A DNA stretch of 44,605 nt. It comes from Halorubrum halophilum. Its GTDB lineage: Archaea; Halobacteriota; Halobacteria; Halobacteriales; Haloferacaceae. The notes beneath the pieces are model-generated. The model saw nothing but the letters and a program-made list of their open reading frames with translations, was not told the DNA's origin and ran no database searches. This document shows, piece by piece, positions 1,957 to 36,951 of the stretch. The stretch spans positions 1 to 44,605 of the forward strand of contig NZ_BBJP01000007.1 of NCBI RefSeq assembly GCF_000739595.1, in the 5' to 3' direction. A program made the position numbers and the translations under genes. Each line of letters opens with the position of its first letter. The first letter of the stretch is position 1.

Positions 1957-3822
1957 CTACTCCGCTTCTTCCTCGAGGAGGGTCTGCCAGTCGAGGTAGA
2001 AGCCGTTGGTCTCGGTGGGCATCGTCGACGTGTCGGTGTTGCGCGGTTCGAGCTGGAACATCCCGTACGGGACGGCGGGCCAGCTCCAGATCCACCCGAG
2101 GCTGTACATCTGGAGATCGCCGTCCTCGCCGCGGCTCTGCAGGGTGGAGAACTGCGACGTCTCCAGCGACATGTTGATCCCGGTGCCGGAGATCAGGTCG
2201 CGAATGAGCTCGCCGGCCGTCTGGAACACCTCGCTCTCGTAGGTCGTAAGCGTCACATCGACCGGATCGTCGGGCGTGATGCCGGCCTCTTCGAGAACCG
2301 ACTGCGCGCCTTGTATGTCGCTCTCGCCGAGACTGTACGGATACGCGTCGAGGAAGTCGTTGTAGCCGTCGTTCCCGGTGGGCCAGATCGCCGGCGGAAG
2401 GAACGTGTAGGCCGCCGTGCCGCGGCCGGCGAACACCTCTTGGACGATCTGCTCTTTGTTCATCACGTACGCGATCGCCTGACGCGCCGCTCGCTCCGTG
2501 TTCGAGACGTTGAACGCGAAGTAGTACGTGCTGATCTCGGCGACGCCGACGTAGTTGACTTCCTCGTTCAGCTCGCCCGCCGGGCCGTACGTCCCGACCT
2601 GACGGCCGCGGTCGTCGGCCTCAGCGTCGACGGCGTCCGCCTCGTACGCGAACGTCGGCATCTCGAAGATGTCGGCGTTCTGTTCGAGGGCGTAGGTCCA
2701 CTGCGCTTGGCTGTCTTCGATGATCTCCCAGTTGACGGCTTCGACGCTCGCGACCTCACCGTAGTAGTCGTCGTTACGGACGACAGTGACATCCTCGTCG
2801 ACGTTGAACGCGTCGAGCTCGAACGGCCCGGTACCGTTCGCGACTTCGGTCGAGAACTCCTGGTGAGTGACCTCGCCGTCGTACCCGTCGATATCGCCGA
2901 CGTACCCCTCGGGAATGACCGAGAAGCTGCTGTACGCGATGACGTCGAGCACGTCGGGATTCGGACCGACGAGCTGGATTTCGATGGTCCGGTCGTCGAC
3001 GACTTCGATCGCGAGCGAGTCGGCGACGACGTTGCCGTCGTCGTCCGTCTCGGCGTCGATGCCGAGACCGACGGGCTGGTTAAGCGTAAAGCCCGCGCGC
3101 TCGGAGTTCTCCGACTCGACGGTGCGGCGCCAGGAGTACTTCACGTCTTGGGCCGTCATCTGGGTCCCGTCGTGGAACTGGACGTCGTCGCGGAGCGTGA
3201 ACGTCCACGTGGTGCCGTCCTCGGAGACCTCGTACTCCGCTAGCAGCTGGTTTTCGACCTCCGGGACGCCGTTGGGGAACGACGTCAGGTTCTCGTAGAT
3301 CTGCGTGATGACCCGGGAGGACTCCGTGTCCGTCGACATGATCGGGTCGAGTTCGTCGAACGTGCTGGCGATGAGGTTGAGTTCGCTCTGTCCCTCGACG
3401 GTCGTCGTGTTGAGCTGCTGCCAGTGGGAACCGAGCGCGCCAGTCAGCGGGACGTCGACGTAGTCGTACCAGAACCGCTCGGTGAGGCTGTGATACAGCG
3501 GGATGACCGCGGCGTCGTCGCGGACCGCCTCCTCCATCTCGATGTACGCCTCCTGTCGGAGTTCCTCGTCCTCCGGGAGGGGGTTGTTGACGGCGCGTTC
3601 CCAGGCGGCCTGCGCCTTGTCGGCGTTGGTGCGCTGGGGCTCGTCCTCGCCGTCTTCGCCGTCCGTTCCGTCTTCGCCGTCGGTGTCGTTACCGTCGCTG
3701 CCGTCGGAGGGCTCCTGATCGGAACAGCCGGCGAGGCTTACCGCCGCCCCGCCGCCAAGGAGGCCGAGTAGCCGTCGTCGGCTCGTGCTCTCAACAGCCT
3801 CTCCATTTGCTGGATCGGGCAT
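1957..3822 (-). CDS. ABC transporter substrate-binding lipoprotein, family 5 (Tat-exported)
   Basis: 621 residues from the chosen ATG at 3822. The N-terminus has a twin-arginine signal with lipobox (SRRRLLGLLG...SLAGC), so the protein is probably exported folded by Tat and lipid-anchored at the cysteine. A Ser/Asp/Gly-rich linker follows. The body is an SBP_bac_5 (DppA/OppA) domain: the frames ending LTSFPNGVPEVENQLLAEYE and TWTFTLRDDVQFHDGT are family hallmarks. The reading frame continues 19 codons upstream, but a TTTAGTATACG box centred 25 bases before 3822 implies a leaderless start there, and the upstream codons would bury the Tat motif. It is the first gene of the importer operon with dppB and dppC. 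Confidence 0.9.
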   Translation of the reverse strand: MPDPANGEAVESTSRRRLLGLLGGGAAVSLAGCSDQEPSDGSDGNDTDGEDGTDGEDGEDEPQRTNADKAQAAWERAVNNPLPEDEELRQEAYIEMEEAVRDDAAVIPLYHSLTERFWYDYVDVPLTGALGSHWQQLNTTTVEGQSELNLIASTFDELDPIMSTDTESSRVITQIYENLTSFPNGVPEVENQLLAEYEVSEDGTTWTFTLRDDVQFHDGTQMTAQDVKYSWRRTVESENSERAGFTLNQPVGLGIDAETDDDGNVVADSLAIEVVDDRTIEIQLVGPNPDVLDVIAYSSFSVIPEGYVGDIDGYDGEVTHQEFSTEVANGTGPFELDAFNVDEDVTVVRNDDYYGEVASVEAVNWEIIEDSQAQWTYALEQNADIFEMPTFAYEADAVDAEADDRGRQVGTYGPAGELNEEVNYVGVAEISTYYFAFNVSNTERAARQAIAYVMNKEQIVQEVFAGRGTAAYTFLPPAIWPTGNDGYNDFLDAYPYSLGESDIQGAQSVLEEAGITPDDPVDVTLTTYESEVFQTAGELIRDLISGTGINMSLETSQFSTLQSRGEDGDLQMYSLGWIWSWPAVPYGMFQLEPRNTDTSTMPTETNGFYLDWQTLLEEEAE

Positions 3823-4458: not shown

Positions 4459-5784
4459 ATGAACACGCTTCGCGTGACGGGCGGACGGGTGCTCCGTTCC
4501 GACGGCCGCGTGACCGAGTCGGACGTACTGGTCGACCGCGACGCCGGGACGATCGTCGCGGTCGACGACGAAACGCCAGAGGACGCGGCGAGCGAGAGCG
4601 TCGACGGGACGGCCGACGAGACCCTCGACGCCGACGGCGGTCTCGTGATCCCGGGGCTCGTCAACGCCCACACCCACGTCGCGATGACGCTCCTGCGCGG
4701 CTACGCCGACGACAAGCCCCTCGACCCGTGGCTGCGCGAGGACATCTGGCCGGCCGAGGCCGAACTCACGCCCGACGACATCGAGGCCGGCGCCGAACTC
4801 GGCGTGCTGGAGATGATCCGGTCGGGGACGACGGCCTTCGCGGACATGTACTTCGCGATGGACCGCGTCGCCGACGCCGTCGACCGCGCGGGCCTTCGGG
4901 CGCGCCTCGGCCACGGCGTCGTCACGGTCGGGAAGGACGCGGAGGACGCCCGCGCCGACGTCGAGGAGGGCCTGGAGGTCGCGGCGGCGCTCGACGGCGC
5001 CGCGGACGGCCGGATCCGGACCGCGTTCATGCCGCACTCGCTGACGACGGTCGGCGAGGAGTACCTCCGCGAGGGCATCGCGGAGGCGCGCGAGGCGGGG
5101 ATTCCGGTCCATCTCCACGCGAACGAGACGACCGACGAGGTCGACCCGATCGTCGACGAGCGCGGGGAGCGACCGATCGCGTACGCGCAGGATATCGACG
5201 CGCTCGGCCCGGACGACTTCTTCGCGCACGGCGTCCACCTGGACGGCTCGGAGATCGACCGGCTCGCCGACGCGGGGACCGCGATCGTCCACTGCCCGGC
5301 CTCGAACATGAAGCTCGCCAGCGGGATGGCCCCGGTCCAGCGCCTCCGCGAGGCGGGCGTCACGGTCGCGCTCGGCACCGACGGGGCGGCCTCGAACAAC
5401 GACCTCGACGTCTTCGACGAGATGCGCGACGCCGCGATGCTCGGGAAGCTCGCCGCGGACGACGCGAGCGCGGTGCCCGCCGCGGCGGTCGTGGAGATGG
5501 CCACCGCCGGCGGGGCCGAGGCGCTCGGTCTCCCCGGCGGCCGGATCGAGCCGGGCGCGGCCGCCGACCTCGCGGTCGTCGACCTCGACGCCCCGCACCT
5601 CACACCGGTCCACGACCCCGTCTCGCACCTCGCGTACGCGGCGCGCGGGAGCGACGTGCGCCACACCGTCTGCGACGGCGAGGTCCTGATGCGCGACCGC
5701 GAGGTGCTGACGCTCGACGCCGAGGCGGTTCAGGAGCGGGCGGCGGCGGCCGCGAGCGACCTCGTCGATCGGGTCGACGAATAG
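4459..5784 (+). CDS. mtaD: 5-methylthioadenosine/S-adenosylhomocysteine deaminase (amidohydrolase family)
   Basis: 441 residues, a metal-dependent amidohydrolase of the MTA/SAH deaminase type (also called DadD or AtzC/TrzA-like). These enzymes deaminate methylthioadenosine and S-adenosylhomocysteine to the inosyl forms. The metal ligands are visible: H71 and H73 in NAHTHVAMTLLRG, H218/H220 in HLHANET, H257 in FFAHGVHL and D308 in GTDGAASNNDLD. The WP segment (EDIWPAEAEL) is also typical. The N- and C-terminal parts form the small beta-sandwich around the barrel. A GCGTTAGG box ~30 bases upstream of ATG 4459 supports a leaderless start. With S-adenosylhomocysteine hydrolase encoded 2.3 kb downstream, SAM by-product recycling is the likely role. 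Confidence 0.85.
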   Translation: MNTLRVTGGRVLRSDGRVTESDVLVDRDAGTIVAVDDETPEDAASESVDGTADETLDADGGLVIPGLVNAHTHVAMTLLRGYADDKPLDPWLREDIWPAEAELTPDDIEAGAELGVLEMIRSGTTAFADMYFAMDRVADAVDRAGLRARLGHGVVTVGKDAEDARADVEEGLEVAAALDGAADGRIRTAFMPHSLTTVGEEYLREGIAEAREAGIPVHLHANETTDEVDPIVDERGERPIAYAQDIDALGPDDFFAHGVHLDGSEIDRLADAGTAIVHCPASNMKLASGMAPVQRLREAGVTVALGTDGAASNNDLDVFDEMRDAAMLGKLAADDASAVPAAAVVEMATAGGAEALGLPGGRIEPGAAADLAVVDLDAPHLTPVHDPVSHLAYAARGSDVRHTVCDGEVLMRDREVLTLDAEAVQERAAAAASDLVDRVDE

Positions 5785-5850: not shown

Positions 5851-6195
5851 GTTTATAAGTGATCGAGTGGTGTTGCTGTCGGCTGTTTATACGTGGTTGC
5901 TGGCTGCGGATCGACGGTGAACGCTTCCAAAGCCCCAGCCGTGAGGGCTCGATGGGCTCGTTGCGGTCCTCGTCACTCGCGTTGCTCGTTTCTGCGGTCC
6001 TTACGTCGCCCGTCTTCACCCTCACGGCTGCCCCTTTGAGTCCCGCCCGCCCGCAACCGCACCGCAGCCTCACACCTCCCCAGCCTCGCGGTTCGCGCTC
6101 TCCGAGCGCTCACCGCGTCCCTCGCGGGCTGGCTCGCGGCCGCCGGTGGCGGCCGCTCGCAGGCGCGCCACCGCGTCGTTATTTATAAGCGATCG
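5851..6195 (-). repeat. Structured intergenic element, copy 1 (inverted)
   Basis: Read on the minus strand it has the same order of blocks as the copies at 9.4 and 30.0 kb: GGTGGCGCGCC (6162-6172), two GC hairpins, GAGGCTGGGGAGG, CTCAAAGGGGCAG (6028-6040), a long-range stem, then CTGGGGCTTTGGAAGCG (5922-5938). The long-range stem pairs CCGTGAGGG (5939-5947) with CCCTCACGG (6019-6027, plus strand). Both ends carry TTTATAAGYGATCG in the same direction on the plus strand (5851 and 6182). No plausible protein is encoded. It fills the gap between the deaminase gene and the secreted repeat protein gene. Confidence 0.7.
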
Positions 6196-6476: not shown

Positions 6477-7982
6477 ATGCACATGAGCAAACGCACGATT
6501 GGCCTGCTGTTGATCGCGGTCGTCGCGCTCGGCGCGATGACCGGCGTCGCGGCCGCCGAGGGCGAACTCGGCGTGGCCGTCGACAAAGACGCGGACGGGA
6601 CATCGACGGTCACGGTGACCGAGAACGACACCGCGGTGGAGAACGCCACCGTGGTCGTGAGCGCGGTCGATGAGAACGAGTCGTACGCGGGAGCGGGCGA
6701 GTACGAGACGGACGCGAACGGCACCGTCGACCTCGAAGCCCCCGAGGAGAACGTGACGGTCGAAGTCGCGGCGGCCTCCGGGAACGAGACCGCCTCGACG
6801 ACGGCCGACCTCGAGGTCCCCGACGGCCTCGAGCTCGACGTCGAGAACACCGGCGGCGAGCCGATCGTGACGGTGACTGACAACGACACCGCGGTCGAGA
6901 ACGCCTCGGTGAACGTCACCGCCGCCGACGAGAACGACACCTACGTCGGCGCGGGCGAGTACGAGACGGACGCGAACGGCAGCGTCACCCTCGACGCCAC
7001 CGAGGAGGACGTGACGATCGAGGTGACCGCCGAGTACGAGAACGACTCCGTCACGGAGACGGTCGATCTCGAGACCCCCGAAGGACTCGCGCTCGAGGTC
7101 GAGAACACCAGCGGTGAGCCCGTCGTCACGGTCACCGACGACGGCGAGGCCGCGGAGAACGCCTCGGTGAACGTCTCCACCGCCGACGGCCAGAACGTCA
7201 CCTACGCCGGCGCGGGCGACTACGAGACCGACGAGAACGGTACGGTCACCCTCGACTCCGCCGACGAGAACGTCACGGTCGACGTGACCGCCGAGTACGA
7301 GAACAACTCCGTCTCGACGACGGTCGACCTGCTCGTGGAGGGTGACGAGGCCGAGGACCAGCCCTTCGGCCGGCTCGTGCAGGACTTCGTCGACCGTCTG
7401 CAGGACCGCGAGGGCGGCATCGGTGCCGCTGTCTCCGACTTCGCGACGGAGAACAACCCGGGGAACGCCCCGGATCACGCCGGGAACCCGGGCGGCCCGA
7501 GCGATGCGGGTAACGGAAGCGACACCGACAACGGAAACGACGCGGACAACGGAAACGACGCAGGCGACGCGGACGACGGCCCCGGTAACGCGCCCGATCA
7601 CGCCGGACCTGGCAACGATAGCGACGGCGAGCAGGGACCGCCGGACCACGCGGGCCAAAGCGGTGACGACGGCGACGACGCGAACGAGAGCGATGACGAC
7701 GAGGAACGCGGACCGCCGGATCACGCCGGGCCCAGCGATGACGACGGCGACGATGCTGACGACGAGGACGAAACGGACGACGGCGACGATGCCGACGACG
7801 CGGAAACGGAAGCGGACGACGCCGAGGAGAGCGACGACGGTGACGATGACGGTGAGGACGGTGACGATGACAGCGACGACGGAGACGCTGACGACGACGA
7901 TGACGATGACGACGGAGGCGCTGACGACGGCAACGCCGGAAACGGTCCGAGCAACGGACAGGGTAACGGTCCGCAGAACTGA
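6477..7982 (+). CDS. Secreted acidic cell-surface glycoprotein with three Ig-like repeats
   Basis: 501 residues. An N-terminal Sec signal peptide (SKRTIGLLLIAVVALGAMTG, cleavage near GVAAAEG) is followed by three repeats of about 85 residues with the shared core VTVTxNDTAVENAxV...YxGAGEYETDANGxVxLxA, resembling Ig-like or carboxypeptidase-regulatory-like beta-sandwich domains. Many N-x-S/T sequons suggest N-glycosylation. A short charged helix (FGRLVQDFVDRLQDREGG) follows. The last ~150 residues are a Gly/Asn/Asp tail with four NAPDHAG/GPPDHAG motifs and a long poly-Asp/Glu stretch. There is no C-terminal membrane helix, so it is probably released or held in the S-layer by other means. The start could also be the ATG two codons on (6483). 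The exact function is unknown; adhesion or surface structure is likely. Confidence 0.75.
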   Translation: MHMSKRTIGLLLIAVVALGAMTGVAAAEGELGVAVDKDADGTSTVTVTENDTAVENATVVVSAVDENESYAGAGEYETDANGTVDLEAPEENVTVEVAAASGNETASTTADLEVPDGLELDVENTGGEPIVTVTDNDTAVENASVNVTAADENDTYVGAGEYETDANGSVTLDATEEDVTIEVTAEYENDSVTETVDLETPEGLALEVENTSGEPVVTVTDDGEAAENASVNVSTADGQNVTYAGAGDYETDENGTVTLDSADENVTVDVTAEYENNSVSTTVDLLVEGDEAEDQPFGRLVQDFVDRLQDREGGIGAAVSDFATENNPGNAPDHAGNPGGPSDAGNGSDTDNGNDADNGNDAGDADDGPGNAPDHAGPGNDSDGEQGPPDHAGQSGDDGDDANESDDDEERGPPDHAGPSDDDGDDADDEDETDDGDDADDAETEADDAEESDDGDDDGEDGDDDSDDGDADDDDDDDDGGADDGNAGNGPSNGQGNGPQN

Positions 7983-24180: not shown

Positions 24181-24308
24181 AGCACCCGGTTCGGGCCGGG
24201 GCGACTTAAGGCGTGGCAGGTTCGGGGTGTGATTAAGCGAGATACTCCGGTCGCGCCGCGCTCGACGGAGGCCGACAGGATTGAAACCGCTGCGACCGAA
24301 GGGGCGGT

Positions 24309-24701
24309 ATGCACTTCGACGCACGGACCCAGCAGGCCCTCCGCGAGGCGGGGCTCGATACGGACGCGATCGCAGCGGCGTCCGACCGAGTCGCCGAACT
24401 CGTCGACGAGGACGCCGACCGCCTCCGAGAGTTCTTCGCGCCGGACGGCCCCTACTACTCCGACATGGAGATGGCACACAGCGCGACCGAGGTCCAAGAG
24501 CACGCGACCGCGGACGTGGATCTGTTCACCCACGGGAGCGACCTCCGCGGGTACCTCTCGCTCGACGGCTGGGGCGTCCCGGTCGAGGGCGGACGGGTGC
24601 TGCGGACCGCGGACGACGAGACCCCCCTCCTCGTCGAGCTCTCGCTCGGCGCGACGGTCCACGACCGCGTCCGATTCGCGCGCGACCCCGACGAGCTATG
24701 A
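24309..24701 (+). CDS. Hypothetical acidic protein coupled to fau-1
   Basis: 130 residues. It begins MHFDARTQQALREAGL and contains HATADVDLFTHGSDLRGYLSLDGWGVPVEGGRV, with no cysteines or membrane helices. I recognise it only as a haloarchaeal conserved hypothetical (possibly DUF7532). Its stop overlaps the next start in an ATGA, so the two proteins are probably made together, which suggests a link to RNA processing. ATG 24309 is ~27 bases after GATTGAAACC. Confidence 0.7.
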   Translation: MHFDARTQQALREAGLDTDAIAAASDRVAELVDEDADRLREFFAPDGPYYSDMEMAHSATEVQEHATADVDLFTHGSDLRGYLSLDGWGVPVEGGRVLRTADDETPLLVELSLGATVHDRVRFARDPDEL

Positions 24702-26167
24702 AGGCCCGCGTGCGCGGCATCTACGCGACGGCGCTCACGCAGGCACTGCTCGACGCGGACCACGAGGTCGTCGACGCGTCGCCGCCGATCCGCCGACGCT
24801 TCGACGCCGAGTTCGGAAGCACGCCGCCCGACGCGCGGATCGCGACGACCGAAGACCGACAGGGCGTCGGCGCGCACGGCGACACGGACGCTGTGGGGGC
24901 CCTCCGCGAACTCCTGACCGGGACCGGGCTCGACGCGCTGGCGTGGCCCGACCCGACCCCCCCCGGGATCGTCCTCGACGGCGAGGTGACCGAGACGCTC
25001 GGCGGGGGGGCGGTGGTGCGGCTTCGGGTCGGCGGGAACGAGAGCGACGACGGCGGCAGCACGGGAGAGACCGCCGAGGGGTACCTCCCGTACGGGAGCG
25101 TCGACGACCGGGTCGAGACGGGCGATCCGGTCCGGGTACAGGTCCGCGAGTCCGCGGCGCCGTGGACGGATCGCCGACCCGAGTTGGACGGGTCGCTGCG
25201 GGCGGGCGGCGGGCTCGTCGCGCTCGAACCGGGCTCGGGCACCCGCGTCGACGTGCGGAACGACGAGGCCGCCCGAGAGCTGTCGGGGATGCTCGACCTA
25301 CTCGGGTTGGAACCGCCGGAGGGGTGGCGCGCCGTCTGGAAGCCCCCCGCGGGCGACGCGGACACCGAGGAGCTAGCGGCTGGGCTCGACCGCGCTGTCG
25401 CGGCGGCCGAGGGGCTCGACGACGCCGTCGACGCCGCGGGAGGGGTCGAGATCCTCGACGGATCGGAGTTCGTCCGCGACGAGCCGCTGGCGACCCCGAA
25501 GGCCGGAATCTGGGTGTGGTTCGGGCGCGAGAGCCGGTTCGCGCTCGACGACCGTCGCCGCGAGGCGACCGCGACGATGCCGGGCCACCACCGCGTGAAG
25601 GCGGGGTCGGCGGACGCGTCCACCGGGGTCGACCTCGCGGAGGCGCTCTGCGAGCCCGACGCGGACGCCGCGTTTCCGTTCGGCGTCGTGACCGACGCGT
25701 TCGGCCCGGCCGAGGGCGACATGCTCCGGCTCGAACACGGCAAGCCCGACGGGCGGCTGATCACGCTGGGCGAGGCGACGGTGACCGCGGTCGACGCCGA
25801 CGGCTCGGTCGCGGTCGAGCGCGAGATGACCGGCGGCGGCACGTACGACGGGCTGGACGTACCCCGCGAGGCGGGCGACATCGCGGAGACGAGCCTGAAG
25901 GAGGGTCGATGGTGGTACCCGACCACCTACCGCGGGCGCGACGGGACAGTGCGCGGGACCTACGTCAACGTCTGCACGCCGGTTGAGGTGTTCCCGGACG
26001 CCGCCCGCTACGTGGACCTCCACGTCGACGTGGTGAAACGCCCCGACGGGACCACTGAACGCCTCGACGACGACGAACTGCGGGACGCGGAGGCGGCCGG
26101 CGACGTGCCGGAACCGCTGGCGGAGAAGGCGCGGAGCGTGGCGTCGGCGCTGGAGAACGCGCTGTAA
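24698..26167 (+). CDS. Probable ribonuclease FAU-1 (RNase E/G-like, DUF402 C-terminal)
   Basis: 489 residues. The FAU-1 family binds AU-rich RNA and is related to the S1-like and core parts of RNase E/G; a role in 5S rRNA maturation has been reported for archaeal members. The N-terminus MKARVRGIYATALTQALLDADHEVVDASPPIRRRF is characteristic. An S1/OB-like region follows (GIVLDGEVTETLGGGAVVRLRVGG...GYLPYGSVDDRVETGDPVRVQV), and the C-terminal DUF402 domain has EGRWWYPTTYRGRDGTVRGTYVNVCTPVEV and RYVDLHVDVVKRPDG. Start overlaps the upstream stop by ATGA. The TAA stop lies at the edge of a decayed transposon end. Confidence 0.88.
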   Translation: MKARVRGIYATALTQALLDADHEVVDASPPIRRRFDAEFGSTPPDARIATTEDRQGVGAHGDTDAVGALRELLTGTGLDALAWPDPTPPGIVLDGEVTETLGGGAVVRLRVGGNESDDGGSTGETAEGYLPYGSVDDRVETGDPVRVQVRESAAPWTDRRPELDGSLRAGGGLVALEPGSGTRVDVRNDEAARELSGMLDLLGLEPPEGWRAVWKPPAGDADTEELAAGLDRAVAAAEGLDDAVDAAGGVEILDGSEFVRDEPLATPKAGIWVWFGRESRFALDDRRREATATMPGHHRVKAGSADASTGVDLAEALCEPDADAAFPFGVVTDAFGPAEGDMLRLEHGKPDGRLITLGEATVTAVDADGSVAVEREMTGGGTYDGLDVPREAGDIAETSLKEGRWWYPTTYRGRDGTVRGTYVNVCTPVEVFPDAARYVDLHVDVVKRPDGTTERLDDDELRDAEAAGDVPEPLAEKARSVASALENAL

Positions 26168-26463
26168 ACTACCCTACCCTACTCCCTCGGCGCTCCGCGC
26201 CTCGGTGCTTAAGAGTGTCGTCAGAAGCGGAGTTTCTGACTGCTAACCAGAAATCTCCGATTTCTGGTGATGGGGCTTTGATGTGGACTCCCAGCAATCA
26301 GTCCCCAGCAATAGGCTGGTAACTCTCGCCGTTCAACGTCAATGCTGAAGAGAGAGGGAACGATCGTCGAATCCAGCACGGACACAAAATCCATTCGTTC
26401 GTGAAAATCGCATATTCCTAACTGAAAACGGATATTTTGAGAGACAGTAGACGAAATACCCAC
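26163..26463 (-). pseudogene. Decayed TnpB-type element remnant with right end
   Basis: An AT-rich patch. On the minus strand the sequence nearest the FAU-1 stop reads GAGTAGGGTAGGGTAGTTTA, close to the right end of the intact element (GAGTAGGCAGGGGTAGTTCA), with an inner hairpin GGCGC-GGA-GCGCC (26189-26201). Upstream of it an 80-codon minus frame contains VERRELPAYCW...AGSPHQSP, which loosely matches the TnpB tail VETALPADT...TGSPCLKEP. No RuvC motifs remain. It is judged a truncated, decayed copy; the protein match is weak. Confidence 0.5.
26220..26268 (-). repeat. Twin hairpins with complementary loops
   Basis: Hairpin one: stem GTCAGAA/TTCTGAC (26220-26226 with 26234-26240), loop GCGGAGT. 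Hairpin two: stem ACCAGAAAT/ATTTCTGGT (26246-26254 with 26260-26268), loop CTCCG. The loops are complementary (CGGAG with CTCCG), so a kissing contact or an alternative long pairing is possible. It lies within the element remnant and may be its old guide-RNA scaffold. Confidence 0.6.
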
Positions 26464-26565
26464 AAGAATTATTAGTTAGCTATGGGGATCCGATATTGTG
26501 ATAGAGAATACCACGCATATTCGATCGAGCGAGCGAGAGGGAGACGGCGATCGAACCGGCGGACC

Positions 26566-27714
26566 GTGAGCGACGCGGCCAGAGCGGACGGGTCGGGCGG
26601 TGGATCGAGGAGCGGTACCGAGCCGATACGGCGCAGCGTCGAGGTCGAGTACTGGGTGATCGACGACGACGGGCGGCTCACCGATCCGGGCGACCTCGTC
26701 GACGCGTCCGCCGGGGTCGAGCGCGAGTTCGTCAGTCCGCTCCTCGAGATCAAGACGACGCCGTGCGAGTCGACGGCGGAGCTTCGCGACGAGCTGGTCG
26801 ACCGCATCGATCGGGTGCTCCGGCGGGCCGACGAGCTCGACAAGGGGCTCGTCCCGTTGGCAACACCGCTCCACGACGGCGATATCGTCGATCTGGAGGG
26901 GGAGCGGACACGGATTCAGGACCGCGTGGTCGGGGACCGCTTCGAGTACGTCCGGCACTGCGCCGGCACGCACATCCACGTCGAACAGCAGCCGGGCCGC
27001 GCGGTCGACCAACTGAACACCCTCACCGCGCTCGATCCGGCGTTAGCGCTCGTCAACTCCTCGCCGTACTTCGAACGGGAGCCGCTGGCCGCCAGCGCGC
27101 GGTCGGTGCTGTACCGCCGGCTGGCGTACGAACACCTCCCGAGGCAGGGCGAGCTGTGGCCGTATCTCGAGGACACCGAGGAGTGGGCGAGGCGGCTCGA
27201 ACGCCGGTACGAGGCGTTCGTCGCCGAGGCGGTCACCGCCGGCTGCGACCGGGAGACCGTCGAGGCGTGTTTCACCCCGGAGGGCGCGGTGTGGATCCCC
27301 GTCAAGCTCCGAGCGGCGTTCTCGACGGTCGAGTGGCGTTCGCCGGACGCCGCGCTCCCGAGCCAAGTCGTTCAGCTGGCGGACGACCTCGTCGAGGTCG
27401 TCGACCGAGCTGTGACCACGGAGGTGCAGATCGGAGGCGACGAGGGGCGCGTAACGGACGACGCCGTCGTGCTTCCGTCGTTCGACACGGTAACGGAGCG
27501 CGTCGAGGCCGCCATCCGCGACGGGCTCGAGTCGGACGACGTTCGGTCGTACCTGGACCGGATGGGGTTCGACGTGGACGCGTACAAGCCCCTTTCGGCG
27601 GAGCTACGAGGCGACGAGGCGCTCTCGGCGGCGGAGGCGAGACAGACGCGGCTCGACTACGCGGACCGGTTAAAACGCGACATCCGCCCTCGACAACCGG
27701 TGAGTGGCGACTGA
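26566..27714 (+). CDS. gshA: Glutamate-cysteine ligase, GCS2-type (haloarchaeal)
   Basis: 382 residues from GTG 26566. Haloarchaea use gamma-glutamylcysteine as their main thiol, made by this enzyme from glutamate and cysteine with ATP. The family pattern is clear: RRSVEVEYWVIDDDGRL (metal/substrate Glu) , EFVSPLLEIKTTPCES, HCAGTHIHVEQ and STVEWRSPDAALPSQV. An ATG at 26482 is in frame but adds 28 mostly basic residues (RARGRRRSNRRT), which do not fit the acidic style or the family N-terminus; a GCATATTCG box near 26515 suits the GTG with a short leader. The region from 26464 to 26565 holds these promoter-like AT-rich sequences. Confidence 0.82.
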   Translation: MSDAARADGSGGGSRSGTEPIRRSVEVEYWVIDDDGRLTDPGDLVDASAGVEREFVSPLLEIKTTPCESTAELRDELVDRIDRVLRRADELDKGLVPLATPLHDGDIVDLEGERTRIQDRVVGDRFEYVRHCAGTHIHVEQQPGRAVDQLNTLTALDPALALVNSSPYFEREPLAASARSVLYRRLAYEHLPRQGELWPYLEDTEEWARRLERRYEAFVAEAVTAGCDRETVEACFTPEGAVWIPVKLRAAFSTVEWRSPDAALPSQVVQLADDLVEVVDRAVTTEVQIGGDEGRVTDDAVVLPSFDTVTERVEAAIRDGLESDDVRSYLDRMGFDVDAYKPLSAELRGDEALSAAEARQTRLDYADRLKRDIRPRQPVSGD

Positions 27715-30462: not shown

Positions 30463-31305
30463 ATGACCGCGATTCGGGTGCTGAGCTACAACGTCCGCTA
30501 CGCCAACCGCGGCGACCACCACGACGCGTGGCACGACCGTCGAGACGCCGTCGCGCGGCTCGTTCGCTTCCACCGCCCGGGCGTCGCCGCCTTTCAGGAG
30601 CCGCTGCCCGACCAGCGCGAGGACCTCCGCGAGCGGCTTCCGAGCTACGAGTTCGTTGGACGCGGGCGCGACCCTGGCGGCGAGGGAGAGGGATGCCCGA
30701 TCGCCGTCCGAGCCGACCGGTGGGAGGTCGCCGACAGCGACACGTTCTGGCTCTCCGAGACGCCGAGCGAGCGGTCGACCGACTGGGGGGCCGCCCACCC
30801 GCGGATCGCGACGTGGGCGCGGGTCCGCGCGGTCGACGGCGACGCCGCGCTCCTCCTCGTCAACACGCACTTCGACCACGTCAGCGCGCACGCGCGACGC
30901 GAGTCGGCGCGGCTGCTCCGCGAGCGGCTTCCAGAGCTAGCAGGGGCAGACGCCGACACCCCCGACTCGACGCCCCCCGTCGTGCTCGTCGGCGACTTGA
31001 ACTGCACACCGGGATCGGATCCGCACCGGATCCTCGTCGGTGACGATCCGGCGGGGGAGTCCGAGGTGGGGCCGACCGACGCCGACCGACTCGCCCTCCG
31101 CGACGCGGCCGCGGCCGCCGACCTCCGACACGGCCCGGAGACGAGCCTCACCGACTTCGCGCGACTGATCGACGGGCGCCGGATCGACCACGCGCTCGTC
31201 TCGCCCGAGGTGGGCGTCGAGGCGTTCGCGACCCTCGCGGACCGCGACGACCGGGGGCGATACCCCTCCGATCACCTGCCGGTGCTCGCGCGATTGGAGA
31301 TATAA
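30463..31305 (+). CDS. Endonuclease/exonuclease/phosphatase (EEP) family hydrolase
   Basis: 280 residues. EEP-fold motifs are in order: SYNVRYANRG (Asn), AFQEP (metal Glu), NTHFDHVS (catalytic His region), GDLNCTPGSDP (Asp/Asn) and SDHLPVLARLEI (final Asp-His). This group includes phosphodiesterases acting on DNA, lipids or phosphoinositides; the substrate cannot be named. A CCTTTTAATCG box at ~30428-30438 lies ~30 bases before ATG 30463, which is preferred to the GTG at 30448. There is no signal peptide. Confidence 0.85.
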   Translation: MTAIRVLSYNVRYANRGDHHDAWHDRRDAVARLVRFHRPGVAAFQEPLPDQREDLRERLPSYEFVGRGRDPGGEGEGCPIAVRADRWEVADSDTFWLSETPSERSTDWGAAHPRIATWARVRAVDGDAALLLVNTHFDHVSAHARRESARLLRERLPELAGADADTPDSTPPVVLVGDLNCTPGSDPHRILVGDDPAGESEVGPTDADRLALRDAAAAADLRHGPETSLTDFARLIDGRRIDHALVSPEVGVEAFATLADRDDRGRYPSDHLPVLARLEI

Positions 31306-34497: not shown

Positions 34498-36951
34498 ATG
34501 TCCGAACGCGACACGCCGGACGGGGACGCGTTCGTCCGCGACGCCGACGAGACGCTTCGGGGGGCGTACGACCCGCCGATGAGCCTCGAGGAGTACGTCG
34601 ACCGGGTGTTGACGAATCCGACCGCGGCCGCCTCCGGCGCGCGGTACCTCCTCGCGGCCGTCGAGTCGCAGGGGACCCGCGAGGTCCGCGAGCGCGGCGA
34701 GCGGCTGGAGCGCTACCGCTTCTTCGACGATCCGTTCAACGACGGAGAACACGCCGTGCTCGGCAATACCGGGGCGCTCAACGCGTTCGTCGACGACCTC
34801 CGGGCCGCCGCCGCGGGGCGCGGCAGCGACGAGACGATCGTGTGGATCGACGGCCCCACGGCTACCGGGAAGTCGGAGTTCAAGCGCTGTCTGGTGAACG
34901 GTCTCCGGGAGTTCTCGAAGACCGAGGCCGGCCGGCGATACACGGTCGAGTGGAATGTCACCGGGGCCGGTGGCGGCGGAAACGGGGGCGGCGCGGGCGC
35001 CGCGTCGCTCTCGTACGGGGACGGCGGCAACGCCGGAGCGTGGTACCGGAGCCCCGTCCAGACGCATCCCCTCTCGGTGTTCCCCAAGGCGGTCCGGGAG
35101 TCGATCGCCGACGCCGTCGACGACGACGCCTACCCGATCGCGGCCGACGTGGACCTGGACCCGTTCAGCCGCGAGGCGTACGACCACCTCGAATCGGTGT
35201 ACCGCGACGAGGGGCGTCGGGACCTGTTCTCGGCGATCACCGACCGCGACCACCTGCGCGTGACGAGCTATGTCGTCGACGTGGGCGAGGGGATCGGCGT
35301 GCTCCACGCTGAGGACGACGGGAGCCCGAAGGAGCGGCTCGTCGGCTCGTGGATGGGCGGGATGCTCCGCGAGCTCGACTCGCGCGGCCGGAAGAACCCG
35401 CAGGCGTTCAGCTACGACGGCGTGCTCTCGCAGGGCAACGGCGTGGCGACCGTCGTCGAGGACGCCAGCCAGCACGCCGACCTCCTCCGTCGACTCCTCA
35501 ACGTCCCCGACGAGCGCCGCGTGAAGCTCGACAAGGGGATCGGGATGGATCTCGACACCCAGCTCATCGTCATCTCGAACCCCGACCTCGACGCCGAGCT
35601 CGACCGCCACGCCGAGCGCGAGGGGGCGGACCCGCTGAAGGCGCTGAAGCGCCGCCTCACCCGCCACGAGTTCCGGTACCTCACGAACCGGCGGCTGGAG
35701 GCGGAGCTGCTGCGGCGCGAGGTCGGCGGACCCCGGGGCGTGCCCACAGTTGACGGGGTCGAGGACGACGGGGAGGCCGAGGAGAGCGCCCCCGGCGACG
35801 ATCCGGCCCGAGACCCCGCGAGCGAGCCCGGCGCGGCGGCGCTCACGATCGGCGTCCGCGACGGCGACGGCGGGGTCACGGAGCGCGAGCTCGCGCCTCA
35901 CGCGGTCGGCGCGGCCGCGCTGTACGCGGTCGTCACGCGGCTCGACACCGACGATCTGCCGGCGGGAATCGACCTCGTCGAGAAGGCGGAGCTGTACGAG
36001 GCCGGCGAGATCCGGCGCGAGCGCGGCGGCGAGGAGGAGCGGGTCGCCGTCGACGACGTCGAGTTCGGCGACGGCGACGGCCGGAACGGCGTCCCGGTCA
36101 CCTACGTCCGCGACGCGGTCGCGGAGCTGCTCGGGTCGGACGCCGACCGCAACCACCCGGAACTGCCGGTCGAGCGGGTGGTCACGCCGACCGACGTGCT
36201 CGACGCGATGGCCGAGGGGCTCTCCGACGCGCCGGTGTTCTCGCAGGCCGAGGTCGCGGAGTTCGAGAGCCGGAAGTCGCCCGTGGCCGAGCGCGTGCGC
36301 GAGCGCCAGCGGGCGGACGTGGTCGACGCGATCCTCGCCGCGGAGACCGTCCCGGAGGCGACCGTGGCCGAGTACGTCGAACACGTGTACGCGTGGGACG
36401 CCGACGAGCCGGTCGAGACCGAGCGCGGTCCGGAGGAGCCGGACGCGCTTACGATGAAGGTGTTCGAGACGGAGACGCTCGGCCGGTTCGACGAGAGCGA
36501 CTACCGCGGGACCGACCCCGCCGAGTCGGTCGCGGCGTTCCGGCGCGAGCGGGTGATCCGCGCGCTCACCCGGTACGCGTGGCGGAACCGCGGCGACGCG
36601 TTCAGCGTCGACGACGTCGAGCTTGGCGAGATCCCGGAGCTGAAGGCGGTGCTGGAGTCGAACGACCTCGCGGACGTGAAACGGCGGTTCCCTGACCTCG
36701 ACCCCGCCGAGTGGGCCGACCCTCCCGCCGACACCGAGACGGAGCGCGTGAAGGCGGCGACGATATCGCGGCTGGTTGAGCGAGGGTACAGCCCCGCCTC
36801 GGCCGAGTTGACGAGCCGCGCCGTGATGCGGAGCGTCCGCGACGAGTGGACGGGGCTAACCGCCGACGGCGGCGCGGACGGGTCGCGCGACTCGGACCGC
36901 CCGAGGGGCGACCGCGGCGGCCGGAACGGAGGTGGTCGGACGTGGGACTGA
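34498..36951 (+). CDS. Second, divergent PrkA-like AAA+ protein
   Basis: 817 residues. Walker A is GPTATGKS at 119-126. Later blocks match the first PrkA in order: [28 protein letters not shown] and [16 protein letters not shown] in the AAA part, then [29 protein letters not shown] and [13 protein letters not shown] in the C-terminal part. It differs by a Gly-rich insert after Walker A (GAGGGGNGGGAGAA, ~155-170), a long acidic insert (~415-450), and an Arg/Gly tail. It is much less like bacterial PrkA and probably forms a partner subunit. The following gene's GTG overlaps its 3' end by 10 bases. Confidence 0.85.

Follow-up and report, generated by a model that had tools for sequence, protein, structure and literature searches.

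A putative mobile double-hairpin element of Halobacteria inside a solitary tnpB right end of Halorubrum halophilum

The window, that is, the whole stretch of 44,605 nucleotides of Halorubrum halophilum DNA that was analysed, contains a region (26163-26463) with a G+C content of 0.50, compared with 0.58-0.75 per kb in the window. The genes and features in and around this region are as follows.

24281..26167 (+), DUF402-domain host gene (PF04167, 2.2e-16), whose stop codon abuts the terminus of the right end
26164..26340 (-), solo tnpB right end (RE) with the double hairpin inside; only the last codons of tnpB are left
26164..26215 (-), outer part of the RE, with the right-end hairpin and the conserved terminus ..AGGGTAGGGTAGTTTAC
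26216..26272 (+), double-hairpin element, here called T1, with its flanking TGs: TG (26216-26217), TC..GA (26218-26270), TG (26271-26272)
26220..26240 (+), hairpin HP1, GTCAGAAGC-GGA-GTTTCTGAC, 9 pairs including one G.T, 3-nt loop GGA
26241..26245 (+), linker TGCTA, joining HP1 and HP2
26246..26268 (+), hairpin HP2, ACCAGAAATC-TCC-GATTTCTGGT, 10 perfect pairs, 3-nt loop TCC
26298..26345 (-), TnpB C-terminus remnant, ..LNGESYQPIAGD-stop, as read from the sequence
26482..27714 (+), GCS2-domain gene (PF04107, 1.7e-9), downstream of the fossil and the AT-rich stretch

Three tRNAs were the only Rfam matches in the window, and the 80-aa minus-strand frame over the solo RE gave no Pfam match. The covariance model of the double hairpin, R1, matches the window at 26217-26272 with an E-value of 5.7e-22.

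The initial annotation described this region as a transposon fossil with a decayed right end, in agreement with the features expected of a solo tnpB right end: the two RE flanks of the hairpins (26162-26216 and 26273-26340) show 91% identity with the RE of an intact tnpB element, presumably of the IS1341 type, on another contig of the same genome (G000:C37), the TnpB C-terminus remnant is present, and a tnpB open reading frame is absent. In the RE of the intact element the two flank pieces directly adjoin, with no hairpins between them; on the tnpB strand, the empty site reads GCCC-CA-CCCT and the filled site GCCC-CA[TC..GA]CA-CCCT. The intact protein is of 415 aa, and its reading as TnpB is based on its sequence and on published descriptions. 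The copy closest to the window RE (26164-26340, 177 nt) is found in another species (G006:C81:236-412, 94% identity), hairpins included. The locus query matched 51 of the 52 genomes of the genus, its own included; outside its own genome, all of the matches listed that reach the end of the DUF402 gene stop at the gene end, and the RE was missing at this locus in the 14 relatives inspected. Since the closest copy elsewhere already carries the hairpins while the locus of the relatives lacks the RE, the RE would have arrived carrying T1. T1 would then have come into the window as a passenger of the tnpB RE, which presumably landed behind the DUF402 gene and afterwards lost tnpB. The closing helix of the window RE is broken in the predicted fold.

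The two hairpins lie back to back at the positions given in the initial annotation, with TGCTA between them. The perfect pairing claimed for both stems holds for the 10 pairs of HP2 and is slightly overstated for HP1, which includes one G.T. The fold of 26210-26275 as DNA reaches -13.8 kcal/mol (z -5.2, none of 200 shuffles as low), and that of 26163-26300 as RNA gives z -2.9 (1 of 200 shuffles as low). A scan for neighbouring hairpins with stems of at least 8 and G.T allowed detected 8 pairs in the window, HP1/HP2 among them, while 12 shuffled versions averaged 0.4. When stems had to be at least 7 long and made of Watson-Crick pairs alone, the window and the shuffles both gave 0, the HP1/HP2 pair being missed because HP1 holds a G.T. 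The seven other neighbouring pairs (3022-3068, 5037-5086, 6496-6543, 31192-31242, 34956-35014 and two more) may originate from codon usage. The loops were also proposed to complement each other as kissing loops. GGA and TCC are indeed complementary in the window copy, but over the family the complementarity is at chance, with 3 of 30 observed against 3.8 by permutation and 9 of 82 against 8.7 expected in a larger set, and kissing loops were therefore rejected.

A search for the twin hairpins in other genomes, as the initial annotation had advised, detected copies both with and without tnpB nearby. The common organization is TG[TC-HP1-TGCTA-HP2-GA]TG, about 55 bp in total (53-59 nt when counted from GTC to GAT, boundary errors aside), with boundaries derived from 15 flank clusters. 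In the copies listed, the foot of HP1 is GTC (or GTG) and that of HP2 is GAT (or AAT). In an alignment of 30 sequences (A1), of which the linker and the outer HP1 pairs were fixed beforehand by the search pattern, the linker TGCTA is invariant and the spacing of the hairpins constant. The stems of A1 covary: 96.5% of 593 cells are paired, compared with 27-43% in slid controls, and double changes were found in 52 cells, compared with 17 in shuffles. Where the stem is perfect and the loop 3 nt long, the loop consists of purines alone or of pyrimidines alone in 82 of 90 cases for HP1 and 81 of 102 for HP2; free triplets would give one quarter, and the copies counted are related to each other. The HP1 loops GAA and TTC are about equally frequent. 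This loop pattern is suggestive of tips that invert, together with copying within the palindrome that keeps the stems perfect.

The strict HP1-TGCTA pattern was found in 27 of the 52 genus genomes, at 76 places counted, while the reversed pattern gave none among the same 52. With model R1 at E <= 1e-6, matches were obtained in 223 of the 292 genomes sampled from the class, related units included; the matches between 1e-6 and 1e-10 are not all T1, ten in the own genome being a related unit, T3, and the number 223 therefore counts a wider family than T1. In a phylum sample R1 matched 25 of 33 Halobacteria compared with 1 of 163 other genomes (the split was tallied from the listing), and in a named genome collection at least 117 stretches matched, of which the 80 listed are all Halobacteria by title but one MAG titled Euryarchaeota. 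By these matches T1 appears to be restricted to the class. At the 80 listed loci at least 83 T1 copies are present: tnpB right ends hold 23 of them, a large intergenic repeat holds 29, and 31 lie elsewhere. These three contexts were set by flank patterns, and at least one copy placed elsewhere (L283) also resembles an RE. Copies within one host context are related by descent, and independent events are therefore far fewer than copies.

For a comparison of insertion sites, 77 of the 83 copies were kept (both flanks were required) and clustered at 60% identity over 25 nt on each side, a threshold that may merge distinct sites; T was found at -1 in 14 of the 15 resulting flank clusters and G at +1 in all 15. 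As judged from these flanks, the insertion site of T1 is a TG dinucleotide and no duplication exceeds these 2 bp; the flanking TG could represent either a 2-bp duplication or a T/G target without duplication, both of which fit. Precise presence and absence of T1 is seen at many sites when related sequences are compared. An acyl-CoA synthetase gene (L295; PF00501, 2.9e-87) contains a 57-nt T1 that adds 19 in-frame residues (ITGTQGVPVSSQKSKISGD) and leaves the frame open, while T1 is lacking in 12 of 12 aligned relatives; in this respect it is like the in-frame gene insertion of Rickettsia RPEs. T1 also interrupts a GNAT gene (L254), whose joined flanks match PF00583 across the junction, and a gene for carbonic anhydrase (L259), whose joined flanks match PF00484 across the junction. 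In Halocatena marina (L282) and Halobacteriales YIM A00013 (L317), T1 breaks two different tnpB frames, apparently at the same codon, before HR(E/K)LPDDA. In Halocatena pleomorpha, T1 lies at the same site of a Pfam-less protein gene in five paralogous places (L265, L278, L286, L299 and L314); this gene family may itself be mobile. T1 belongs to the structural class of double-hairpin elements, since the adjacent hairpins insert as one unit and empty sites exist. On this combined evidence the twin hairpins of the window are very probably a copy of a double-hairpin element of Halobacteria that is mobile, miniature and non-autonomous.

T1 also sits inside another twin-hairpin unit, T2, within a large Halorubrum repeat (..CGTGAT[GTC..GAT]GACGAG..). 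T2 also occurs without T1, in two tnpB right ends (L137 and L168), where it occupies the apical loop. The Halorubrum-type intergenic repeat is a GC-rich, large family, present in the window at 6000-6191, at G000:C102:48379-48829 and at L029-L058, and its places in the own genome that were scored number no fewer than 40; some copies carry T2/T1 and others T3, a third twin-hairpin unit. T3 (CACGAGAGC-hairpin-AGCCA-hairpin) is also found in the 3' end of tnpB frames (L129, L133, L138 and L141), with ACGTT on both sides.

The initial annotation supposed that an RNA structure had been kept after loss of the protein. In this line of thought, the tnpB reRNA/omegaRNA scaffold would have had the hairpins ancestrally as a functional module, which selection on RNA preserved in the fossil and which most relatives lost. 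The hairpins do lie within the scaffold region, their stems covary, and T1-bearing right ends exist beside open TnpB frames. In a tree of 123 TnpBs, however, T1 is carried by 5, with at least four changes and at one scaffold site, while 118 are without such an insert by pattern; 7 of the original 130 TnpB rows were dropped for length, and a T1 may have been missed in rows with internal stops. Each T1-carrying TnpB stands beside near-identical TnpBs without T1 (91-96% identity); between carriers from different lineages the identity is 47-75%. Among 130 right ends sorted by motif, T1 was detected in 5 of 42 with AGGGTGGGG, leaving 37 ends of this motif without it, and in 0 of 22 with AGGGTAGGG, numbers too small to establish a TG preference of the RE site; the other 66 belong to neither main motif (63 other and 3 AGGGAGGG). 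T1 is present, furthermore, in protein genes and intergenic repeats, the kissing loops are at chance, and the window copy has a G.T within an RE of which the helix is broken. The ancestral-module reading is accordingly very improbable. The hairpins are instead a separate small insertion in the RE, optional in the scaffold and common outside it, so that the proposed retention of RNA structure does not hold: the window stems are still paired because the passenger arrived paired, and no selection on RNA is required for their good pairing. If this is right, perfect hairpins in decayed DNA need not imply a conserved RNA.

Sequence comparison shows that T1, where it inserted in tnpB right ends, occupies a single site of their long closing helix, within the reRNA/omegaRNA scaffold. 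On the tree this took no fewer than four changes, some of which could represent right-end recombination rather than fresh insertion. In predicted RNA folds T1 forms a side branch of this helix, and its palindromic pairing fits an RNA role in carriers too. A right-end hairpin and a pseudoknot have been described for haloarchaeal omegaRNAs, and the portions of those descriptions available do not mention such inserts. The same or nearly the same T1 hairpins are found in REs at different sites within each of several species (L298/L306, L281/L303 and L258/L304), and a T1-bearing end can therefore still be spread.

Literature searches, with preprints and most subscription journals outside their coverage, gave no report of T1. 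The nearest haloarchaeal precedent is SMR-A of Haloquadratum walsbyi (HqIRS42/43/55); of 192 element-in-element events reported, 104 are insertions of this kind into near-terminal palindromes of IS605-type elements (PMC3119063). SMR-A elements are described there as short and gene-free, with no reported target duplication and a preference for IS605-type palindromes (PMC3119063); T1 is likewise flanked by at most a 2-bp TG, and 23 of its 83 listed copies lie in tnpB right ends. SMR-A elements differ in being about 110 bp in length, in having inverted terminal repeats and in forming families dissimilar to each other (PMC3119063, as far as available), whereas T1 is about 55 bp, class-wide and also present in genes; this separation from HqIRS42/43/55 is drawn from their description, which in the parts consulted mentions no two-hairpin anatomy.

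Among bacterial systems, REPINs (REP doublets with RAYT) share with T1 a two-hairpin mobile dimer, compensatory stem changes and tandem clusters, but the feet of their hairpins are tagged with GT[AG]G, and they have an associated RAYT gene and a longer spacer (PMC3116915, PMC6006769, in the parts accessible). The feet of T1 are TC/GA in place of GT[AG]G, and its linker is of 5 nt. CGTC-REPs and Rickettsia RPEs resemble T1 as palindromic dimers found in genes, sometimes in frame, with no dedicated transposase, while CGTC-REPs are distinguished by an unpaired CGTC at one end, stems of 8-9 bp and loops of 4-5 nt (PMC3733652, available in part). In T1 the GTC of CGTC is paired within HP1, and copies outside the tnpB ends and the Halorubrum repeat mostly read GTCGCC, CGTC being absent there. 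Mitochondrial double-hairpin elements also consist of two small hairpins as a unit, are found in structured RNA genes and in tandem, and insert into protein genes without frameshift, no flanking duplications being reported for Allomyces in the accessible text; they differ from T1 in residing in organelle genomes and in unrelated sequence, and the same text describes no target dinucleotide for them (PMC2800124).

One conceivable origin of T1 is the fusion of the ends of a core-deleted IS200/IS605 element (PATE). T1 has two hairpins of subterminal type and lacks a target duplication, and Haloquadratum is known to have PATEs, one version of which, 52 bp long, consists of the termini alone. However, an element in which HP1 and HP2 stand separately was found in 0 of 52 genomes by exact pattern, none of them having an HP1 foot without the T after it, and neither the linker nor the distance between the hairpins varies in A1. 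As HP1 was never apart from the linker T in these genomes, the two hairpins together make up the unit, and derivation from a core-deleted IS is distinctly unlikely.

For the movement of T1, we suppose that the hairpins are seen as single-stranded DNA shapes, in which the hairpin feet, the linker and the TC/GA ends would matter and the stem sequence would be irrelevant, and that the moving enzyme is supplied in trans. The best candidate would be a Y1 HUH transposase that works on DNA while it is exposed as a single strand, as with REPINs and the ends of IS200/IS605 elements, although we hold this step at somewhat below even confidence. A Y1_Tnp match was found in 41 of 52 genomes with a profile that is not RAYT-specific, and it was absent from four T1-bearing genomes (G014, G018, G028 and G007), which weakens the proposal of Y1 in trans. 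A simple dependence of T1 on Y1_Tnp was rejected on the same ground. These four genomes would also agree with passive, transposase-free spread by template switching or as repair filler, to which the loop flips and perfect stems, both pointing to copying within the palindrome, can be added. In contrast, the precise ends and the TG target in the 15 flank clusters indicate an enzyme, and passive spread is unlikely. With an enzyme in trans, the perfect stems and flipping loop tips may still arise from copying or inversion within the palindrome and not only from selection on RNA.

We further propose, as a rather doubtful generalization, that T1, T2 and T3 form one archaeal lineage of mobile double-hairpin DNA, spread over the class and moved without a REP-type enzyme, recognised by shape, with loop tips that flip at each move or replication, with mutual nesting, and with repeated invasion of one helix of the TnpB guide RNA, which may tune or blunt the nuclease. 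If the reading of T1 itself as a mobile element is right, gene-free mobile DNA of about 55 bp has spread through a whole archaeal class, into structured guide RNAs, genes and other repeats; natural T1 insertions would show which parts of the TnpB guide RNA tolerate an extra domain, and T1 would offer a testable case of hairpin-only elements moving without a known transposase.

T1 was not found in viral contigs, and phages gave no match; among plasmids a single T1 was detected, in Halobacterium sp. DL1, within the 3' part of an annotated IS605 transposase gene. Tandem arrays of T1 occur. In Halorubrum aquaticum (L326), T1 lies at both ends of a 5044-bp contig in inverted orientation, and the host repeat therefore breaks assemblies.
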